From positions 1 through 34,856 of the forward strand of contig JAJYUU010000046.1 of NCBI GenBank assembly GCA_021792405.1: 34,856 nt of DNA, written 5' to 3'. The first letter of the stretch is position 1. Every line of letters starts with the position of its first letter. The notes under the pieces are model-generated. The model saw nothing but the letters and a program-made list of their open reading frames with translations, was not told the origin of the DNA and did not search any database. Positions 1 to 7,349 of the stretch are shown one piece after another. This stretch comes from Actinomycetes bacterium. GTDB lineage: Bacteria; Actinomycetota; Actinomycetes; Streptosporangiales; Streptosporangiaceae. The position numbers and the translations under genes were made by a program.

Positions 1-831
1 GGGGAACGCCAGGCTGTTCAGCCCGGCCCAGTCGCCCGCTTTCAAGTGCATGGCGCCGAAGTTGATCGCACCGTTGACCGCCAGGCTCTCCAGCGCGTAA
101 ATGACCATGGTGATGAAAAGGGTGATGAAGACGGCCTTGGGGATGACCTTTCCGGGATCGCGGACTTCCTCGGCGTAGTCGATCGGCTGGCGGAATCCGC
201 CGTAGCCGTAGATCGTGGCCGAGATGGCCAGGAACACTCCGCTGTATCCCATCGGCGCGAAGCCGCCGAAATGCGAGAAGTTATGCGGCTGGAACTGGGT
301 CAGCAGCGCCAGGATCAACACGACGAGGCCGACGATCGTGGCGATCGTCAGCACGTTGTTGATCTGCCCCATGTACCTGATCCGCAGCCAGTTGATGATC
401 GCGACAGCCACCAGGATGAGCAGCGTGGTGAGGATGCCGGCGGTCGTCAGCTTGGTGCCCGTATACAGGCCGGGGAACCAGTAAGCGAGGTACTCGGTGA
501 ACGCGACGCAGATGGACGGCACTGCCAGCGCGTATCCGATGAACGATCCCCAGGCGTTCAGCACACCGACGATGGGGCCACTGCTACGCGCCGGGTAGTA
601 GGCGACCCCGCCGGCCCGCGGCCACATGGTGCCGAGTTCGACGTAGGCCATCGCCACCGCCAGGATCAGCAGCAGGGCGATCACCCACGAGATGATTCCC
701 GCCGGCCCGGCGAGCGCGAGAACCGAGACAGGGGTGAAGCCGACCGCAGGGCCGAGAATCGCCCCGGTAGCCAGGAACACGACGCTCCACAGGCCGAGTT
801 CGCGCCGGTACTGATGAGTGGTAGATGACAT
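1..831 (-). CDS. APC-family amino acid/amine permease, C-terminus cut by window edge
   Basis: This is an integral membrane permease of the amino acid-polyamine-organocation superfamily, and 277 codons are visible. It opens MSSTTHQYRRELGLWSVVFL, followed by a glycine-rich first helix (ATGAILGPAVGFTP) and the family hallmark GTMWPRAGGVAYYPAR after the second helix. Further hydrophobic helices follow (ILTTLLILVAVAIINWL, TIVGLVVLILALL), then the cytoplasmic FRQPIDYAEEVRDPGKVIPK motif typical of APC transporters. The ATG is preceded by AAGGAGG at ideal spacing, so the start is secure. It lies 70 bases downstream of the glutamine-synthetase-like gene on the same strand and is probably co-transcribed, which suggests it imports the substrate of that ligase. 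Which amine or amino acid it carries cannot be read from sequence. The stop codon lies outside the window. Confidence 0.9.
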   Translation of the reverse strand, partial: MSSTTHQYRRELGLWSVVFLATGAILGPAVGFTPVSVLALAGPAGIISWVIALLLILAVAMAYVELGTMWPRAGGVAYYPARSSGPIVGVLNAWGSFIGYALAVPSICVAFTEYLAYWFPGLYTGTKLTTAGILTTLLILVAVAIINWLRIRYMGQINNVLTIATIVGLVVLILALLTQFQPHNFSHFGGFAPMGYSGVFLAISATIYGYGGFRQPIDYAEEVRDPGKVIPKAVFITLFITMVIYALESLAVNGAINFGAMHLKAGDWAGLNSLAFP

Positions 832-901
832 ACTGGCCTCCTTCGAAAGGCCCGGGCGGTCACCATGGAAAGCCGGACGGGCCGGCCTGCCGGGCTTGTG
901 T

Positions 902-2452
902 TCAGAAGAACTCGAAGTACTCGCGCATCTCCCAGTCGCTGATGTTCTGTCCTTCGGGTGGCGGGTTCTGCGCGACGGCCGCGTTGTAGCGGGCCACCTC
1001 GGCGCGCTTCATCTGCAGCAGGTAGTCGACCAGGATGTCGCCGAACGCCTTGCGGAAGAACTCGTCGTGATCGAGCACGCCAACCGCGTCTTCGAGGGAC
1101 GCCGGAAGGCGGGTGTTGTCGGTGGCGTACGGGTCGGCCTCGACCGGCGGCGGCGGGTCGAGCGCGCGGCGGATGCCGTCGAGCCCGGCGGCGATGTTCG
1201 CCGCCATGTACAAGTAGGGGTTAGCGGCCGGCTCGCCGATCCGCATCTCTACGTGGCTGTTCGCGTCGCCGGGCGCACCCTGAACGCGGACCAGTGCCCC
1301 TCGGTTCTCCAGCGCCCAGCACACCCGGTCGGGCGCGAAGGAGTACGGGCGGAAGCGCTTGTAGCCATTGACCGTCGGTGTCGCGAACACGCTCATCGGC
1401 AGCGCGTGCTCCAGCAACCCGGCGACGAACTGCCGTCCGGTCAGCGACAGGTAGTCGTCGTCGCTGGCGAACTCGTTCCGCCCGTCCTGCCGCGAGATCA
1501 GCGATTCGTGCAGGTGCCAGCCCGACGGGAAGAAGTTCGGCAGCGCAGGCACGCACATGAATGTCGCCAGCAGCCCGCGGCGCTGGCAGATCTGCTTGAC
1601 GGCGGACCTGAACAACACCACGGCGTCGGCTGCCGCCAGCCCGCCGATCGGGCTGAAGCTGAACTCGATCTGGCCCGGTCCCCACTCGTCCTCCATCGAG
1701 CGGGGCGGGAGTCCGACGGCCGCGAGGCCATCGCGGATCACTTCCAGCGTGCTCGCCACGCTGTCCAGCCGCACCTCCGACAGGTACTGGTAGCCGCGCT
1801 CGAAGACGCTGACCGCAGGCGGCGGCGCGGCGAAGCCGGCGTCCTGCGGTGCGATGTGCTCGGAGTCGAGCTTGACGATGTAATACTCGATCTCGATCCC
1901 GGCCAGGTAGTCGAATCCGGCGTCGCCGAGTTCGGACAGCAGGCGCCGCATCAGCCCGCGGCCATCCAGCGGCACTGGCTGGCCATTGGAGAAGTACGTG
2001 TCGCACAGCATCCACCCGGTCCGGTCGGCCCAGGGCAGCACACGGAACGTGGCCGGATCGGGTACGAGGACGACATCCGGGAAACCGGTGAACTCAGCGA
2101 TGCCGAACCCGCCGCCGGCGGCGAAGGCCGGCACGAACACCTGGTTGCCAGTGTCAAGGCTGTAGATCGCACCGGAGAAGTCCAGGCCATTGGACATCGC
2201 GGCGATGGCCACCTCGGGCGACAACGACTTAGCACGGGGCATGCCGTGCTGATCCACGACCACCAGCCGGACGGTGCGGAGGTCTAGCGCACGGATCTGG
2301 CCGGAGACCTCAGCCGCCATGGCGGCCTGCTCCGGCGTGTACAGGCCGTTGCGCGCGACGAATCCTGGCTGGCCAACGCCGTGCGCGTCAGTACGCCCCG
2401 GGGGGACTCCGGACCCCGATGGCCGACCCGCGGCCGGGCTGCTGCTAGTCAC
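902..2452 (-). CDS. Glutamine synthetase-like gamma-glutamyl-amine ligase
   Basis: A 516-residue member of the glutamine synthetase fold, which joins glutamate's gamma-carboxyl to an amine using ATP. Catalytic landmarks are GIEIEYY (E187, E189), EWGPGQIEF (E263), GWHLHESL (H313), NRGALVRV and EMRIGEPAANPYLY (E402, R404). The C-terminus ISDWEMREYFEFF resembles GlnA-like amine ligases rather than housekeeping GlnA. The position equivalent to the latch Glu of bacterial GSI (GYEAP motif) reads YSFAP, so Phe372 replaces it, and no NLYDLPPEE adenylylation loop is present. Both argue for an organic amine rather than ammonium as acceptor. The GTG start was chosen because GGAGG lies 8 bases upstream; a TTG 54 bases earlier would add 18 poorly conserved residues. 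The first 35 residues are low-complexity. The neighbouring permease, aminotransferase and amidohydrolase support a catabolic role. A role in ordinary ammonium assimilation is unlikely. Confidence 0.88.
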   Translation of the reverse strand: MTSSSPAAGRPSGSGVPPGRTDAHGVGQPGFVARNGLYTPEQAAMAAEVSGQIRALDLRTVRLVVVDQHGMPRAKSLSPEVAIAAMSNGLDFSGAIYSLDTGNQVFVPAFAAGGGFGIAEFTGFPDVVLVPDPATFRVLPWADRTGWMLCDTYFSNGQPVPLDGRGLMRRLLSELGDAGFDYLAGIEIEYYIVKLDSEHIAPQDAGFAAPPPAVSVFERGYQYLSEVRLDSVASTLEVIRDGLAAVGLPPRSMEDEWGPGQIEFSFSPIGGLAAADAVVLFRSAVKQICQRRGLLATFMCVPALPNFFPSGWHLHESLISRQDGRNEFASDDDYLSLTGRQFVAGLLEHALPMSVFATPTVNGYKRFRPYSFAPDRVCWALENRGALVRVQGAPGDANSHVEMRIGEPAANPYLYMAANIAAGLDGIRRALDPPPPVEADPYATDNTRLPASLEDAVGVLDHDEFFRKAFGDILVDYLLQMKRAEVARYNAAVAQNPPPEGQNISDWEMREYFEFF

Positions 2453-2529
2453 GTGGCTGTCCTCCGATGCAGTTGTGTCTGAGTCGGCCGGACACCGGGA
2501 GGCCAAGGCTTCCGGCGCCCGGCACCGGA

Positions 2530-3090
2530 TCAGGTCTTCTCGGGGGCACCGCGACGCTGGCTCATCTGTGCCAGCATCGCGGCGGTGAAGTTGGCGGGCT
2601 CGACGTCAGCAAGGGACAGGTACGTCTCGGTCCGCTGTACGCCGCTGATCTGGAAGATCTCGGCGAGCAGCAGTTCACGCAGGTGCACGTGATCCCGGAC
2701 GCGCAGCCGGACGAGCAGGTCAAGGCCGCCGGTCACCACGCTCATGTCCTCGGCCTCTGGCAGTGCCCGGATCGCTTGGATGATCTCGCTGAGATCCATG
2801 CCGGGGCCGGCCGTGACCGCGATGTAGACGACGACCGGGTATCCAAGGGCCGCCCAGTCGACCTCGACCCGGTAGCCCCTGATCGCGCCCAGGCGCTCCA
2901 ATCGGGCAATCCGGTCAGCCACTGCGGGAGGCGACATCTCGACTTGCCTGGCCAGCGCACGCTGTGACTGGCGGGCGTCGCTCGCCAGTGCGCGTAGCAG
3001 GGCTAGGTCGAGGTCGTCTACCTCGACCTCCGGGCGGGCCGCCGAGGTAACTTCGGCCAGCCTCGCGAAGGGCGCTGAGACGGTTGCCAT
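2530..3090 (-). CDS. Lrp/AsnC-family transcriptional regulator
   Basis: A 186-residue DNA-binding regulator. After about 25 variable residues comes a classical AsnC helix-turn-helix (LDLALLRALASDARQSQRAL, then PPAVADRIARLERLGAIRGY), followed by a RAM/Lrp ligand-binding domain (VVVYIAVTAGPGMDLSEI, MSVVTGGLDLLVRLRVRD, ISGVQRTETYLSL). Proteins of this family form dimers to octamers that bind amino acids and wrap DNA. It is the first gene of the leftward transcript, 77 bases ahead of the ligase gene, and divergent from the aminotransferase operon. The natural inference is that it controls both transcripts from the shared 129-base interval, where two matching palindromes lie. The ATG has no strong ribosome-binding site. 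Confidence 0.93.
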   Translation of the reverse strand: MATVSAPFARLAEVTSAARPEVEVDDLDLALLRALASDARQSQRALARQVEMSPPAVADRIARLERLGAIRGYRVEVDWAALGYPVVVYIAVTAGPGMDLSEIIQAIRALPEAEDMSVVTGGLDLLVRLRVRDHVHLRELLLAEIFQISGVQRTETYLSLADVEPANFTAAMLAQMSQRRGAPEKT

Positions 3091-3118
3091 ATGCCAGCCG
3101 ACCGTTCGTGATGCCGAG

Positions 3119-3191
3119 TAACTTGAGTTATGCTAGCTGCCATAGCCGTTGCTTCTGTAAAGCATGCGGTGAGAAATTCTTACATTTGTAA
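3119..3191. promoter_or_regulatory. Divergent control region with two 5+2+5 palindromes, candidate Lrp-family sites
   Basis: The interval between the regulator and aminotransferase genes is far richer in A+T than its surroundings. It holds two perfect interrupted palindromes of the same architecture: TAACT-tg-AGTTA at 3119-3130 and TTACA-tt-TGTAA at 3180-3191. Their centres are 61 bp apart, close to six helical turns. A further half-site TGTAA lies at 3156-3160. Spaced short dyads of this kind suit the Lrp/AsnC protein encoded next door. Binding is inferred. Confidence 0.5.
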
Positions 3192-3219
3192 AATCGACTG
3201 TCAAGATACGGAAGCGCCA

Positions 3220-4446
3220 ATGACCGCAGCAATGGACCAGAGCCGTATGAGCGGCTGGGACGCCGCTTTGGCCAGGCGCACGAAGTCACTAGGGGGCGGC
3301 GAGATCACCGCGATTCTCGCGCTCGCCGGGGCGTCCGACGTGATTACGTTCTCCGGCGGGTTCCCCGATCCGGCCACGTTTCCGACGCCAGTGCTCGCGG
3401 ACATTGCGGCTCGCCTGATCACGCAGGACCCCGGCGTCGCCCTGCAGTACTCGGCGACCGAGGGCATCGCGGGCGTGCGTGACTACGTAGCCGGCCGGCT
3501 CGCTGCGCTCCAGGGCCGCATGCCGGGCCCGCCGGAGTTGATGGTGACCAGCGGCGGCATCGACTGCATGGAGCTGGTCGCCAAGAGCTACCTGGATGCC
3601 GGGGACACAGTGGTAGTCGAGTCGCCGACGTACCTGGGCGCGATCATGGCGTTCCGCGGCTATGAGGCTAACGTGCGGGGCGTGCCGGTCGACGGCGACG
3701 GGTTGCGGACCGACGTGCTCGCCGATCTGCTGGCTGCGGGCCTGCGACCGAAGATCTTGTACACGATCCCGGATTTCCAGAATCCGACCGGGCTGACGAT
3801 GAGCGCGTCTCGCCGGAGTGAGCTGATCGCGCTGGCCCGGCGGTACGGGTTCCTGATCCTCGAGGACGTCGCGTACCGGGACCTCCACTTCGAGCAGCCG
3901 CCGCCAGACAGCCTGTGGTCGATGGCGCCGGATGTCGTGCTGCAGGCCGGGACGTTCTCCAAGATCTTCTGCCCGGGCTTCCGGATGGGCTGGGCGGCAG
4001 GGCCGGCCGAGATCATCAGCCGGCTGGTGGTGGCCAAGCAGAACTCCGATCAGTGCGCGGGCGCTCTTGGCCAGCGGATGCTGGAGGAGTACGGCCGCGG
4101 CGGGCACATGGAGCGCCAGATCGTCGCCTCTCGTGCCCTGTATGCGCGCCGCGCCGCCCTGATGGGCCAGGCGCTGACCGCGCACATGCCGGAGGGAACG
4201 ACATGGACTGCACCGCAGGGCGGCTTCTACATCTGGGTCACCGCTCCCGAGGGCGTGGATACCGTGGCGCTGTCCGCCGCGGCGCGAGCGCGGAAAGTGG
4301 CCTACGTACCGGGCCGGCCCTTCTACCCGGCTGACGACGGCGCGGCGAAGATCCGCCTCGCGTACAGCCGGGTGGCCGACGAACTCATCGACGAAGGCAT
4401 CCACCGGATCGGCGGGGTGCTCAGAACTGCACTGGAGGAGCTGTGA
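3220..4446 (+). CDS. PLP-dependent class I/II aminotransferase (LysN/Aro8-like)
   Basis: A 408-residue fold-type I aminotransferase of the group shared by 2-aminoadipate and aromatic aminotransferases and by MocR catalytic domains; no regulatory wHTH domain is attached. Landmarks are SGGFPDPATFP near residue 45, QYSATEGIAGVRDYV, ESPTYLGAI (Tyr137 region), NPTG at 188-191, EDVAYRDL with Asp216, and the cofactor-lysine motif GTFSKIFCPGFRMGW with Lys248. The C-terminal KIRLAYSR holds the carboxylate-binding Arg. The ATG at 3220 is preferred for its GGAAG five bases upstream and because homologues start near here; an upstream in-frame ATG at 3130 would run through the operator region. It is the first gene of a four-gene rightward operon and would deaminate or transaminate an amino acid or a gamma-glutamylated diamine. 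The substrate is undetermined. Confidence 0.9.
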   Translation: MTAAMDQSRMSGWDAALARRTKSLGGGEITAILALAGASDVITFSGGFPDPATFPTPVLADIAARLITQDPGVALQYSATEGIAGVRDYVAGRLAALQGRMPGPPELMVTSGGIDCMELVAKSYLDAGDTVVVESPTYLGAIMAFRGYEANVRGVPVDGDGLRTDVLADLLAAGLRPKILYTIPDFQNPTGLTMSASRRSELIALARRYGFLILEDVAYRDLHFEQPPPDSLWSMAPDVVLQAGTFSKIFCPGFRMGWAAGPAEIISRLVVAKQNSDQCAGALGQRMLEEYGRGGHMERQIVASRALYARRAALMGQALTAHMPEGTTWTAPQGGFYIWVTAPEGVDTVALSAAARARKVAYVPGRPFYPADDGAAKIRLAYSRVADELIDEGIHRIGGVLRTALEEL

Positions 4447-4916
4447 GCGACGAATCGCTGGGTGACGCGGCGAGCCACTTCACCACGGAGGCACACGGCG
4501 AGCCGGCCGGTCCCGGCCGGTACGTCAACGTGGACTCGATCAGTCCGGTCGAGTTCCTCCCTGGGCTCGGGTTCCGGCCGGTCAGCGGGCAGCGCGGGAT
4601 GACTAACTTCGTCAGCTTCGAGCCAGGCGCGAAAGCGCCGCGGCATGTGCACGAGGAGGAGCAGATCGTCATCGTTATCGATGGCGAGTTCACCTTCGAC
4701 CTGGACGGCGACGTACGCGTCATGCGCAAGGGGGACGTCGCGGTCGTGCCGGCGTGGGTCCCGCACGGGGCATGGACTACTGACAGCCACTGCCTGGAGA
4801 TCGACGTGTTCTGCCCGCCCCGGCAGAGCCTGCTGAAGCTCGCCGCCGCGCAGGCCGCGCAGGCCGAGCAGTCCGCGCAGGCCGGGCAGGCCGGGCAGCC
4901 GGGGAGCGAGTCCTAG
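4443..4916 (+). CDS. Single-domain cupin protein with Gln/Ala-rich tail
   Basis: A 157-residue protein with one conserved cupin barrel. Motif 1 is FEPGAKAPRHVHEEEQ with candidate metal ligands His68 and His70, and motif 2 is VPAWVPHGAW with His108. The usual motif-1 acidic ligand falls in a run EEEQ (71-74), so its exact position is uncertain. Cupins of this kind are metal-dependent dioxygenases, isomerases or simple sensors; nothing here separates these. The GTG start overlaps the aminotransferase stop in a GTGA arrangement and has a strong GGAGGAG just upstream, so translation is coupled. The last 25 residues are a low-complexity tail of Q-A and Q-S units encoded by 9-base repeats. The stop codon abuts the next start directly. 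Confidence 0.82.
   Translation: MSDESLGDAASHFTTEAHGEPAGPGRYVNVDSISPVEFLPGLGFRPVSGQRGMTNFVSFEPGAKAPRHVHEEEQIVIVIDGEFTFDLDGDVRVMRKGDVAVVPAWVPHGAWTTDSHCLEIDVFCPPRQSLLKLAAAQAAQAEQSAQAGQAGQPGSES
4848..4901 (+). repeat. Six in-frame 9-bp units at the cupin 3' end
   Basis: Six consecutive 9-base units related to GCGCAGGCC (GCGCAGGCC, GCGCAGGCC, GAGCAGTCC, GCGCAGGCC, GGGCAGGCC, GGGCAGCCG) encode a tail of the form [A/E/G]-Q-[A/S/P]. The repeat is in frame with the cupin gene and can change length by slippage without disrupting it. Confidence 0.85.
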
Positions 4917-5726
4917 GTGGACCTCGGGCTGGTCGGCCGCAAGGCGATTGTCACCGGCGGCTCGAAGGGACTGGGCAAGGCCATCACCGCCGATCTGATG
5001 GCCGAGGGCGCATCGGTCGTCATCTGCTCTCGGCATGTCGCCGAACTCGAGTCGACGGCAGCGGAACTGACGAAGGGCGCATCCGGCGGTGCCGGATCCA
5101 GCGTGGCCGGAACCGTGTATGCCCTGCCGTGCGATGTGACAGACGCGGGCCAGGTCATCAGCTTCATCGATGACGCGACGGCCGCCCTTGGCGGGCTGGA
5201 CATCCTGGTCAACAATGCCGGCGGGGCCAGGGCCGGGCAGTTCGGCACCCTGACCGATGACGACTGGCATGCTGACATCGAGCTCAAGCTGCTCGCCCAG
5301 ATCCGGTGCACGAGGGCGGCGCTGCCGCTGCTACGGCAGAGCCAGGCGCCCCGGGTAATCAACATCAACGCCGTGTACGCCCGTTACCCCGATCCTGCCT
5401 TCCTCGCCTCGTCCGTTAACAGGGCATCCTGCCTTAGCCTGTCGAAGGCGCTGTCCATCGAACTTGGCCGGGAGGGGATCCTGGTCAACAGTGTCAACAT
5501 CGGCCTGGTCGAGACCCCGCAGTGGCAGAACATCCACCGCCGGCGGGCACCCGGCATGCCGGCCGGGCAGTTCTTCGGGAAGCTGGCCGAAGCCGAGGTC
5601 CCGCTCGGCCGGTTCGGCCGCCCTGACGAGGTCGCTGGGCTGGTGACGTTCCTGGCCAGCGACCGGGCTAGCTATATCGCCGGCGCGTCCATCGACGTTG
5701 CCGGCGGTATGGGCAAATTCTTGTAG
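4917..5726 (+). CDS. SDR-fold protein lacking the canonical YxxxK catalytic pair
   Basis: A 269-residue Rossmann-fold protein of the short-chain dehydrogenase family. The cofactor loop is intact (VTGGSKGLG at 12-20), as are DVTDAG (acidic residue near 73), NNAGGA at 99-104 and the C-terminal ASYIAGASIDVAGG. The catalytic section is not canonical. Where YxxxK is expected the sequence is ASSVNRASCLSLSKAL, placing Ser165 and Arg169 at the Tyr and Lys positions. The Ser strand reads VININAVYARYPD, and the helix that normally supplies Asn reads DIELKLLAQI. It may use other residues, act as a lyase or isomerase, or bind nucleotide without redox chemistry. Tyr154 and Tyr157 could be substitutes. The GTG start follows the cupin stop with no gap. 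The downstream amidohydrolase starts 14 bases after its stop. Confidence 0.85.
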   Translation: MDLGLVGRKAIVTGGSKGLGKAITADLMAEGASVVICSRHVAELESTAAELTKGASGGAGSSVAGTVYALPCDVTDAGQVISFIDDATAALGGLDILVNNAGGARAGQFGTLTDDDWHADIELKLLAQIRCTRAALPLLRQSQAPRVININAVYARYPDPAFLASSVNRASCLSLSKALSIELGREGILVNSVNIGLVETPQWQNIHRRRAPGMPAGQFFGKLAEAEVPLGRFGRPDEVAGLVTFLASDRASYIAGASIDVAGGMGKFL

Positions 5727-5740
5727 GGAACGGGGATTGC

Positions 5741-6523
5741 ATGTGCCGGCTGCTTGGTTACTGCTCGGATCACGAGGCGTCGCTGGAGGACCTGATCGGC
5801 GCCGATGGGCTCCGCGAGTTCACCGGTCTGTGCGCACTGCACGGCGACGGGTGGGGGATGGCCTGGTACGACGGCACCGAGCCAGTTATCCGCAAATCGC
5901 CGCTCCGCGCCGACAGCGAGCCGGAATATGACAAGCTGGCCCGCGAACCGCTGGCCGACCTCGGGCTCGTGCACCTGCGCTGGGCAACCCCCGGCCTTGG
6001 CGTGACCGAGCGCAACAATCACCCGTTCCGGTACGGCCAGTACGTGTTCGCGCACAATGGCGCCATCCATCCGCAGAACAGGCTGCCCGAGATGCTGCCG
6101 CCGCAGTGGGAGAGCAAGCTGGCCGGCACGACCGACAGCGAACGGTACTTCCTGCTCATCATGTCGCGGCTGGCCAGCAACGGCGGGGACATGGTCGCCG
6201 CGATCGCGGCGGCGGCCGCCGACATCGACGCCCGGTTCGAGCCGAACAGCCTGAACGCGATCCTGGCGTCTCCGGACGAGCTGTACGCGGTCAGCTGGTA
6301 CCACCGCGACCTCGCGCCCGAGGCTAAGCTGCGGGCCCGCGGTTACCAGCCGGACGAGATCGCGGCCTACTTCGACCTGGCCTATCGCGCGACCGGCAGT
6401 GCCGTGGTTGTCGCGAGTTCAGGCTGGCCGCAGCCCGGCTGGACACCGCTGGCGAACCGCCATGTCCTGGTGACGGACCGGCGAACTCTCAAGACCGGGG
6501 TGCTACCGCTGACGGCGGTCTAG
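5741..6523 (+). CDS. Class II glutamine amidotransferase-fold (Ntn) hydrolase, EgtC/YafJ-like
   Basis: A 260-residue Ntn hydrolase that begins MCRLLGY; Cys2 becomes the N-terminal nucleophile after removal of Met1. Family motifs are HGDGWGMAWY (34-43), HLRWATPG with Arg80, NNHPF (92-96), AHNGAIH (104-110) and TTDSERYFL. It is a stand-alone domain with no synthase partner, like YafJ and EgtC. EgtC removes a gamma-glutamyl group from an ergothioneine precursor, so the fold is suited to hydrolysing gamma-glutamyl amides. In this operon, opposite a gamma-glutamyl ligase, release of glutamate from a pathway intermediate is the obvious inference. No egtB or egtD neighbour is present, so ergothioneine synthesis itself is unlikely. 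Its stop overlaps the convergent hypothetical gene by a few bases. Confidence 0.88.
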   Translation: MCRLLGYCSDHEASLEDLIGADGLREFTGLCALHGDGWGMAWYDGTEPVIRKSPLRADSEPEYDKLAREPLADLGLVHLRWATPGLGVTERNNHPFRYGQYVFAHNGAIHPQNRLPEMLPPQWESKLAGTTDSERYFLLIMSRLASNGGDMVAAIAAAAADIDARFEPNSLNAILASPDELYAVSWYHRDLAPEAKLRARGYQPDEIAAYFDLAYRATGSAVVVASSGWPQPGWTPLANRHVLVTDRRTLKTGVLPLTAV

Positions 6524-6948
6524 CCGAGCGCCAGCGCGCCCGCGTCGACGTGCTCAGGTGCGGCGCTGGTCAGGTCGAGGTACATCTGATCGGCCGGCTC
6601 AGGCAGTGCGACCGCGCTGGCACTAGGCACCGGACGCGGCCGCCGCGGCTGGCCGGCCGCCGAGGTTCCGCCGCGGCCGCGGTAGATGAGCAGGCCGTTG
6701 ACCGGGTCGGGGACCGCGTCCAGGGCGGCGCGAACCACCGGCAGGTCGCGGAAGGCCAGCCAGTCAGCCTCGGTGGTGAAGCAGACCTCGAAGGCTACTC
6801 CCCAGGTACCCGCATGCCAGGTCCCGTCGAGCGCGCCGTTAGTAAGCGCCGCCTCGATCAGTTCGGAGTCGTGCGCCTGCTGCCACTGGAAGGCCGAGAA
6901 CTCGGAGAACTCCGAGTGCAAGACCTCGATGGACCACCATTCAGCCAT
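6520..6948 (-). CDS. Conserved actinobacterial hypothetical protein
   Basis: A 142-residue soluble protein resembling hypothetical proteins seen in many actinomycetes; no function is known to me. The conserved part is the N-terminal 95 residues (MAEWWSIEVLHSEFSEF, ELIEAALTNGALDGTWH, WGVAFEVCF, VRAALDAVPDPVNGLLIYRG), ending in RGRGG. A Pro/Arg/Ala-rich tail follows. The ATG at 6948 was preferred over a GTG at 7026 because residues before MAEWW belong in style to a different, membrane-type reading (see the relic just upstream). It is convergent with the amidohydrolase gene, overlapping its stop. Confidence 0.7.
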   Translation of the reverse strand: MAEWWSIEVLHSEFSEFSAFQWQQAHDSELIEAALTNGALDGTWHAGTWGVAFEVCFTTEADWLAFRDLPVVRAALDAVPDPVNGLLIYRGRGGTSAAGQPRRPRPVPSASAVALPEPADQMYLDLTSAAPEHVDAGALALG

Positions 6949-6983
6949 TACCTGGATGGTACGGCCGGGCAACTGGATCGCGG

Positions 6984-7349
6984 AAGGGAGCTGAGCGATC
7001 CGGACCAGGCAGTTGAAGGTCACCACGGCGATTCTCCAGGTGCATGACCATCAGCACCCCGACCGCCTTGCCAGGCTGGCCCCGGTAGAGAATGTACAGG
7101 TCAGGCAGCCACAGGACGAGCGTGACCAAGATGGCCGAGACGAGGTACACCCGGCGTGGCCGCGAGCTGACCCTGGTCACGGCCGGCCAGCCTGGACGGG
7201 GACATCGCCTGGCCGATGACCACCAACAGTTGACCCTGGCCCGGCCGCAGCGGGCCGCAGGAGAGCAGGGAGAGAGGTCCGGCCATCCGCACTGCACGTG
7301 CACCAGTGACCGCGAGCAGCGGTGCCGGCGGCGAGCCAGCCGCGGTCAT
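6984..7349 (-). pseudogene. Frameshifted relic of a small membrane protein
   Basis: No intact gene is seen between 6949 and 7305, but the minus strand carries pieces of a hydrophobic protein in different frames. One frame gives RRVYLVSAILVTLVLWLPDL, then a second segment GVLMVMHL (7153 down to about 7037). The continuation expected of such a helix, IAVVTFNCLVRIAQL, is found directly afterwards in another frame (7032 to about 6984). An upstream third frame is open from 7349 to 7101. The MHL-then-hydrophobic ending recalls the DUF6069 style of actinobacterial membrane proteins, but that assignment is weak. At least one indel near 7036 is needed. The 5' end overlaps the start of the divergent ABC gene. 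Confidence 0.45.

Follow-up and report, generated by a model that had tools for sequence, protein, structure and literature searches.

Amines are glutamylated, and the resulting gamma-glutamyl compounds hydrolysed, in a number of described systems. In aniline degradation, as related in PMC11335346 and PMC4539516, a hydrolase (AtdA2) serves as a safety valve that reverses the ligase. The Streptomyces polyamine pathway, in the account given in PMC5403932, has a predicted hydrolase, SCO6961, encoded beside glnA3, and a domain of the same broad kind is described for FluG (PMC6478659). In ergothioneine synthesis, as outlined in PMC4621440 and PMC9103826, EgtA makes gamma-glutamylcysteine and EgtC removes the glutamate at a later step. 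Here we analyse a block of seven genes at positions 1-6523 of a stretch of 34,856 nucleotides (the window; contig JAJYUU010000046.1 of assembly GCA_021792405.1, from a member of the Streptosporangiaceae), in which a ligase resembling glutamine synthetase (GS) is accompanied by a stand-alone class II amidotransferase-fold hydrolase, hereafter GAT2. Amine glutamylation is known; what sets the block apart is an unusual hydrolase and a middle section to which no reactions are assigned. The explanation that we favour, with a probability of roughly 0.6, is that the block imports and glutamylates an organic amine, that GAT2 hydrolyses gamma-glutamyl amides, and that this enzyme secondarily stands in for EgtC.

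Gene content and conservation of the block

The window starts at base 1 of its contig (C19), in a genome of 5.39 Mb and 314 contigs. Open reading frames (ORFs) and domain models bear out the seven genes proposed in the first-pass annotation, in place and in family: permease, ligase and regulator on the minus strand, divergent from aminotransferase, cupin, a protein of the short-chain dehydrogenase/reductase (SDR) fold and GAT2, which has the N-terminal nucleophile (Ntn) of its class, on the plus strand.

1..831, minus: APC-family amine/amino-acid permease; 277 aa, cut by the contig end; PF13520, 133.5 bits
902..2506, minus: GS-like ligase of the organic-amine group; PF00120, 266.5 bits; best PDB match NpaA1 (8WWU)
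2530..3090, minus: Lrp/AsnC-family regulator; PF01037, PF13404
3220..4446, plus (longest ORF 3130-4446): class I aminotransferase of the 2-aminoadipate/kynurenine-type group; PF00155
4443..4916, plus: single-domain cupin with an HxH...Q...H pattern; PF07883
4917..5726, plus: SDR-fold protein without the catalytic Tyr and Lys; PF13561
5741..6523, plus: GAT2, stand-alone class II (N-terminal Cys) amidotransferase-fold hydrolase; 260 aa; PF13230, 59.5 bits

The plus-strand genes are closely packed, with aminotransferase and cupin overlapping by 4 bp, cupin and SDR abutting and a gap of 14 bp between SDR and GAT2, and dN/dS is 0.09-0.26 for six genes (the permease not among them) against one to three same-genus relatives. 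The order of ligase and Lrp gene followed by aminotransferase, cupin and SDR recurs in other genera and in genomes placed in other families (f37, f78), and with GAT2 at its end it is found in four genomes of the same genus, in L051 (G145, titled Nocardiopsaceae but placed in the window's family), in G043 and in L053, from a metagenome-assembled genome (MAG) titled Candidatus Dormiibacterota. The permease lies on the ligase side wherever the contig allows, with full-length orthologs in L036, L037, L051, L053 and L079, and in a relative from family f43 the ligase stands about 6 kb off the rest of the block. The genes of the two transcripts do therefore co-occur in relatives; a lack of such co-occurrence would, by the terms of the first-pass annotation, have refuted its reading. 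The scan of contigs used a single protein query and under-samples distant relatives.

Seen from the hydrolase, the linkage with the ligase is close. The ligase is present in 9 of the 11 loci whose GAT2 is at least 53% identical, and the contigs of the other two (G002, G048) end first; L053, with 45% identity, holds the full block, and the next nearest loci, L058 (42%) and L054 (40%), have no ligase. The line for a window-type GAT2 (45% and up), between L053 and L058, was set after the loci were seen. Distant GAT2-like proteins with 32-42% identity (L043, L044, L045, L054 and L058) lie outside such blocks, and no relative was found in viral contigs. The two genes also stay together in rearranged loci: G019 keeps only ligase and GAT2, adjacent and divergent, within 19.5 kb, and G022 has a permease, a 50%-identical GS-like ligase, PNPOx, GAT2, SDR and Dabb genes, with the cupin on other contigs. 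As a separate observation, a GAT2-like gene of Nocardioides phosphati is divergent from a gene of the YbdK/glutamate-cysteine-ligase type (L054 8817-10804).

To avoid selecting loci by the hydrolase itself, a survey was made with the cupin as query. At 1e-15 it matched 13 of 250 family genomes and 16 of 396 phylum genomes, which are 28 different genomes, the window's included. A GS-like ligase lies in the stretch read for 11 of them (G000, G001, G004, G007, G008, G010, G043, G145, G350, G386 and G471; in G386 it is 47% identical and about 6 kb from the Lrp gene). In the remaining 17, some contigs end and others hold only part of the block, and neither aminotransferase nor SDR stands beside the cupin in 5 of the 15 further phylum loci. 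The hydrolase slot of the 11 ligase-holding blocks is taken by a window-type GAT2 in seven, by a second class II enzyme in two, by a nearby type-1 glutamine amidotransferase (GATase) in one and by none in the last, so that a class II enzyme of either type is found in 9 of 11.

The second class II enzyme (G386, G471; PF13230) shows 51-52% mutual identity and 30% identity to GAT2 over 112 residues. It was found in 3 of 27 genomes of the taxonomic class concerned, namely in these two blocks and in G482, where a 5.6 kb contig has it facing away from an SDR ortholog and shows neither a ligase nor a cupin or Lrp gene. A degenerate relic of this enzyme (29% match, by eye) lies at about 4978-5600 of L118 (G558), beside a type-1 GATase and upstream of a cupin-SDR pair, and suggests a replacement of one hydrolase by another. 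A class I replacement of GAT2 in G010 is only suggestive, because its GATase gene is encoded on the opposite strand at a distance of 1.5 kb and is matched at 1e-25 in 33 of 120 relatives, some of them without a cupin match (G003, G005, G006, G018, G021, G025, G027). A further candidate for the slot is an amidohydrolase of PF04909, near the block in L121 and with relatives in L038 (30%), L039, L053 and L120; it might qualify because SCO6961 is a predicted hydrolase and FluG has such a domain, a likeness drawn from published descriptions only.

The ligase belongs with amine-glutamylating enzymes

The best PDB match of the ligase is NpaA1 with 437.5 bits; the second-best PDB entry reaches 174.8. 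The hallmarks of NpaA1 used here, in the description of PMC11335346, are a Glu pair in the amine pocket, a motif-15 loop and a lost Glu flap. The window ligase keeps E232 and E234 of the NpaA1 amine site, W235 and the motif-15 loop, and it has Phe at the position of the Glu-flap Glu, which is retained in the genome's own GlnA-like protein (L101). It thus has the sequence features of the glutamyl-organic-amine synthases (GoaS): a GS catalytic domain that carries both the motif-15 loop and the Glu pair, and loss of the Glu-flap Glu. At the position of NpaA1 V201 it carries Tyr, a residue that AtdA1 is also said to have there (PMC11335346).

In the ligase tree, the window clade (9 rows, support 99/99) includes the Dormiibacterota and G019 rows. 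It belongs to the same large group as the AtdA1/NpaA1 kind. Separate from the window clade are the clade that holds the aniline and naphthylamine rows and the plasmid rows linked to Rieske genes; the PuuA-like and GlnA-like paralogs of the same genome sit far away on long branches. A PuuA-like ligase was considered and rejected on the tree, the NpaA1 match and the score against the PuuA equivalog model (256 bits, with a cut-off of 650). By sequence the ligase is nearer to the arylamine group (NpaA1 and plasmid aniline-type ligases) than to PuuA or to the genome's PuuA-like paralog, so the grouping with organic-amine glutamylating ligases made in the first-pass annotation stands while the Puu-type likeness does not. 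Its predicted substrate is likely an organic amine. The TTG start of the ligase ORF is doubtful, relatives beginning about 18 codons further in (by eye).

Among 676 plasmid records with a ligase match, the neighbourhoods of nine annotated regions were considered, and in these the ligase relatives stand beside class I hydrolases, amidases or Rieske oxygenases. On the Novosphingobium plasmid pSA3 an annotated glutaminase (L086 14231-15142) is encoded within a few kb of a ligase of the GS-like type and may represent a further sort of deglutamylase.

GAT2 as a predicted gamma-glutamyl hydrolase

Cys2, Arg80, Gly107, Thr131, Asp132 and other residues of GAT2 are invariant in 14 sequences, and Asn106 is kept in at least 90%. 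The protein has the elements of the class II Ntn glutamine site (Cys2, Arg, HNG and Asp), whose roles we take to be those of GlmS. An AlphaFold2 model built with 13 sequences (pLDDT 92.9) has EgtC as its best fold match (Z 25.1, root-mean-square deviation 2.3 over 217 residues; Foldseek E 3.8e-14), with 24% identity in the structural alignment. That GAT2 might be a true EgtC was rejected on gene place, outside the egt operon, and on the EgtC equivalog model, which gives 67.5-70.4 bits at a cut-off of 218.65. The window genome also has, on contig C62, a GS-like ligase with an aldehyde dehydrogenase and a PuuD-like class I hydrolase (PF07722, 212.4 bits, under the PuuD equivalog cut-off); therefore, GAT2 is not in the block for want of a class I enzyme. 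A complete predicted gamma-glutamyl site in an enzyme that travels with the ligase supports a role of GAT2 on gamma-glutamyl compounds. In a side locus, L042 2206-2547 (G048), a GAT2 gene without its N-terminal half follows directly after the SDR gene.

Genomes without egtC

The window genome encodes egtA, egtB and egtD in a row and no egtC, with only 96 bp between egtB and egtD (L098 2996-6437); this cluster is on contig C228 and GAT2 on C19, outside the egt operon. No protein of the genome other than GAT2 matches the EgtC model at E <= 0.001. If they make ergothioneine by the EgtA route, genomes of this kind need some gamma-glutamyl hydrolase, because EgtA adds a glutamate.

A survey of 41 genomes contained 30 with EgtB over cut-off and an EgtA match of at least 240 bits; G002, G005, G018, G023, G080, G081, G083, G084, G085 and G086 were left out for having no EgtB over cut-off. 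EgtC is over its cut-off in 24 of the 30, and the six without it (G000, G001, G004, G007, G008 and G019) all carry a window-type GAT2. The egtB-egtD gap is 95-131 bp in all six, against 759-907 bp in five egtC-bearing genomes measured, which excludes an assembly gap as the cause of the absence. An egtC match next to egtB was seen in each of five more genomes that hold the block or parts of it (G043, G145, G048, G042 and G036); in G145 and G048 the contig ends within this match. Altogether egtC is missing in 6 of 10 GAT2-positive and in 0 of 25 GAT2-negative genomes with egtA and egtB (Fisher p 1.3e-4, a value that ignores kinship; G048, with its truncated GAT2, is counted as positive here and as negative in the sign test below).

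On a tree of egt proteins from 14 genomes the fewest changes are four for egtC and four for GAT2, and there is the example of two sisters (98/100 to 100/100), G001 with GAT2 and no egtC and G003 with egtC and no GAT2. The pattern is confounded by kinship, and four changes are too few for a test. It points, apart from the linkage with the ligase, to a GAT2 that cleaves gamma-glutamyl amides and can replace EgtC. The block itself does not serve ergothioneine, since six genomes from outside the family with all or part of it (G386, G350, G471, G482, G558 and G685, not all of them complete) gave no EgtB match.

Middle section, control elements and neighbouring genes

The top PDB matches of the aminotransferase are PH0207 and 1X0M (292.5 bits each), followed by other broad-specificity aminotransferases and 2-aminoadipate transaminase. 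Its start is more likely the ATG at 3220 than that of the longest ORF, because this start is kept in same-genus relatives and is preceded by a conserved dyad, TTACATTTGTAA. The HxH...Q...H pattern of the cupin, presumably its metal ligands, is kept across 11 aligned sequences. The SDR-like protein retains its nucleotide-binding motif and, with dN/dS of 0.13-0.16, evolves under purifying selection; at what we take to be the catalytic positions, Ser or Thr replaces Tyr and Arg replaces Lys in 13 of 13 aligned sequences (R169 being invariant), which makes the usual dehydrogenase role unlikely. Its relatives on two proteobacterial plasmids adjoin Rieske and VOC genes and give no clear lead to a substrate. 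A cupin-SDR pair from Gemmatirosa (L061) was not retained as a block, being only 37-38% identical and with no ligase match in the stretch.

Two symmetrical elements lie around the divergent starts:

3081..3100, no strand: palindrome across the Lrp start codon, possible operator; identical in L037, shorter in L036
3180..3191, no strand: dyad TTACATTTGTAA 5' of the aminotransferase, possible operator or promoter element; conserved in relatives

The dyad has one match in the whole window and none in 100 shuffles, and it is exact in L036, L037 and L049 and one change away in L035.

An eighth gene, encoding a Dabb protein (PF07876), occurs in 13 loci with the block or parts of it (L035, L036, L038, L039, L053, L079, L120-L124, L127 and L128) and was not found in the searched loci L037, L040, L041 and L051. 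L035, the closest relative, has it on the far side of the permease, and a copy belonging to the window could accordingly lie past the end of the contig. Genes resembling branched-chain aminotransferases adjoin block genes in L053 (1292-2383, by family model) and L083 (1513, a 53% relative beside the cupin), and others are seen in L122 (1-510, 29%) and L133 (5355-5636, by eye, beside the SDR); one may speculate on an amine derived from a hydrophobic amino acid. In L040 (7227-8219, G019) an AurF-type diiron N-oxygenase (PF11583) is convergent with the ligase, and was dropped as a pathway member, being a single and convergent case. Behind the block, a convergent gene (window 6520-7026, minus strand) encodes a 168-aa protein without Pfam (1e-4) or NCBIfam (1e-5) match, which is kept in this place in L035 and L037.

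Proposed pathway and alternatives

The sequences show which genes are present, how they are conserved and linked, to which families they belong, which active-site residues they keep and where egtC is missing; from this we infer the reactions, the amine, the order of the steps and the EgtC stand-in as follows. The permease would import an organic amine, which is likelier to be bulky or aromatic than a polyamine, and the ligase would join it to the gamma-carboxyl of glutamate at the expense of ATP. Aminotransferase, cupin and the cofactor-binding SDR-like protein would act on the carbon skeleton, in no assigned order, and Lrp would sense the amine or a metabolite. GAT2, through its N-terminal Cys, would hydrolyse gamma-glutamyl amides, either freeing the processed product or, like AtdA2, limiting the build-up of the amide. 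Several GAT2 lineages appear to have lost EgtC, perhaps because a gamma-glutamyl hydrolase, GAT2, was present in the cell and may serve that ergothioneine step instead. A broader formulation, to which we give somewhat less than even odds, is that an undescribed amine-glutamylation pathway, present in at least one Dormiibacterota MAG and in several lineages of Actinomycetota, has a class II hydrolase that also acts as EgtC, that egtC became dispensable about four times, and that two distant class II lineages, and perhaps class I enzymes, fill the same slot of the amine pathway.

Several observations weigh against the favoured explanation. Five of the seven window-type GAT2 blocks of the cupin survey come from one genus, the window's; the block of G010 looks complete yet has no GAT2, the GAT2 of G048 is truncated, and the stretch read in G350 shows no class I or II hydrolase. 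The conserved Asn106 is His in G019, and PF13230 also contains proteins of unknown or other function. As to ergothioneine, four GAT2-positive genomes (G022, G043, G145 and G048) retain egtC; one GAT2-negative genome with EgtB, G087, lacks EgtC over cut-off (it is off the table for want of an EgtA match); and a sign test on four independent pairs has a median p of 0.25, four pairs being unable to reach 0.05. The central proposal of the first-pass annotation, GAT2 as the deglutamylase, is accordingly supported in part, and on genomic grounds: the complete site, the linkage and the egtC gap speak for it, and the enzyme is not universal in the block. GAT2 may, but need not, remove a glutamate mask productively, because the hydrolase of aniline degradation is reported to reverse its ligase.

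That role could be the whole of what GAT2 does, reversing the ligase against a toxic gamma-glutamyl amide in a pathway that never deglutamylates productively by hydrolysis. The ligase has its nearest solved relative among enzymes of the AtdA1/NpaA1 kind. This role is assigned to a GAT-like enzyme both in a review and in the paper on NpaA1 (PMC4539516, PMC11335346), and the hydrolase type differs between blocks, as might be expected of an auxiliary. The aniline logic, in which an oxygenase consumes the amide, is however unavailable here, because there is no ring dioxygenase among the block genes (the rest of the window was checked by eye only), and we regard this account as rather unlikely. GAT2 could also be functionally the ergothioneine EgtC, moved out of the egt operon into an amine block where its place is incidental: EgtC is the best fold match, GAT2 is the sole EgtC-model match in the window genome, and among genomes with egtA and egtB the gene egtC is missing only in those with GAT2. 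Against this improbable relocation stand the 67.5 bits under a cut-off of 218.65, the L053 block in a genome without EgtB match, the three genomes that hold both genes (G022, G043 and G145) and the cohesion of GAT2 and ligase through rearrangement.

Butirosin biosynthesis uses gamma-glutamate for protection, and the block might likewise build a compound instead of breaking one down, with glutamate protecting it for a time. A mix of aminotransferase, cupin and SDR also occurs where unusual amino acids are made, as in the case of bacilysin. The block includes a permease of importer type and an Lrp regulator, though, and no other biosynthetic genes are seen nearby (by eye), which leaves biosynthesis a low probability. 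It is very improbable that the block serves ordinary glutamine metabolism, with a ligase that makes glutamine and GAT2 as glutaminase or ammonia donor. Both folds permit it, but the ligase has other residues at the Glu flap and at one position of the ammonium site, GAT2 has no synthase domain, and three further members of the GS family are encoded in the genome, of which two look GlnA-like by eye.

The open-licence literature searched, in which older subscription papers may be missing, brought up GS-like amine pathways, EgtC and Dug3. It yielded no report of this gene combination, in agreement with the first-pass annotation, which had not recognised it from any described pathway, and none of a GS-like amine pathway that employs a class II hydrolase. 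The block would thus be a conserved multi-gene pathway without a found report, and it offers a testable function for a stand-alone class II amidotransferase. The natural egtC-less genomes, in turn, allow a question to be asked: which enzyme performs the step of EgtC? If GAT2 serves both pathways, a single enzyme is common to the use of an amine and the making of an antioxidant, and such reuse would mislead gene-by-gene annotation.

Comparison with known systems

With EgtC (4ZFJ-4ZFL) GAT2 shares the fold, the N-terminal Cys and, likely, the hydrolysis of gamma-glutamyl amides, and it is a possible stand-in in six genomes; it differs in its sequence (24% identity, under the model cut-off) and in the cluster that holds its gene. 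Fungal Dug3, compared by published description and not by sequence, is likewise a class II enzyme, linked to the breakdown of glutathione, a gamma-glutamyl compound; unlike GAT2 in its block, it is described as working with Dug1 and Dug2. The E. coli Puu pathway and Streptomyces GlnA3/GlnA4, as presented in PMC5403932 and PMC6529630, resemble the block in the logic of amine glutamylation, the permease and a predicted hydrolase, and the PF04909 amidohydrolase beside some blocks resembles FluG and SCO6961, again by the papers' descriptions only. Unlike the Puu pathway, the block has a ligase far under the PuuA cut-off and no genes of the PuuB, PuuC or PuuD type, the PuuD-type gene of the genome (PF07722) being on another contig, C62. 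The systems of NpaA1, AtdA1 and TdnQ, in the account of PMC11335346, have in common with the block the ligase group, the Glu pair of the amine pocket, the motif-15 loop and a neighbouring hydrolase of GATase type. Their hydrolase is class I and the one described here class II, and, unlike in the aniline-type clusters (atdA/tdn), no Rieske dioxygenase is found among the block genes (by eye in the rest of the window). In place of the ring dioxygenase, the block has an aminotransferase, a cupin, an SDR-like protein, a permease, an Lrp regulator and, often, a Dabb protein.

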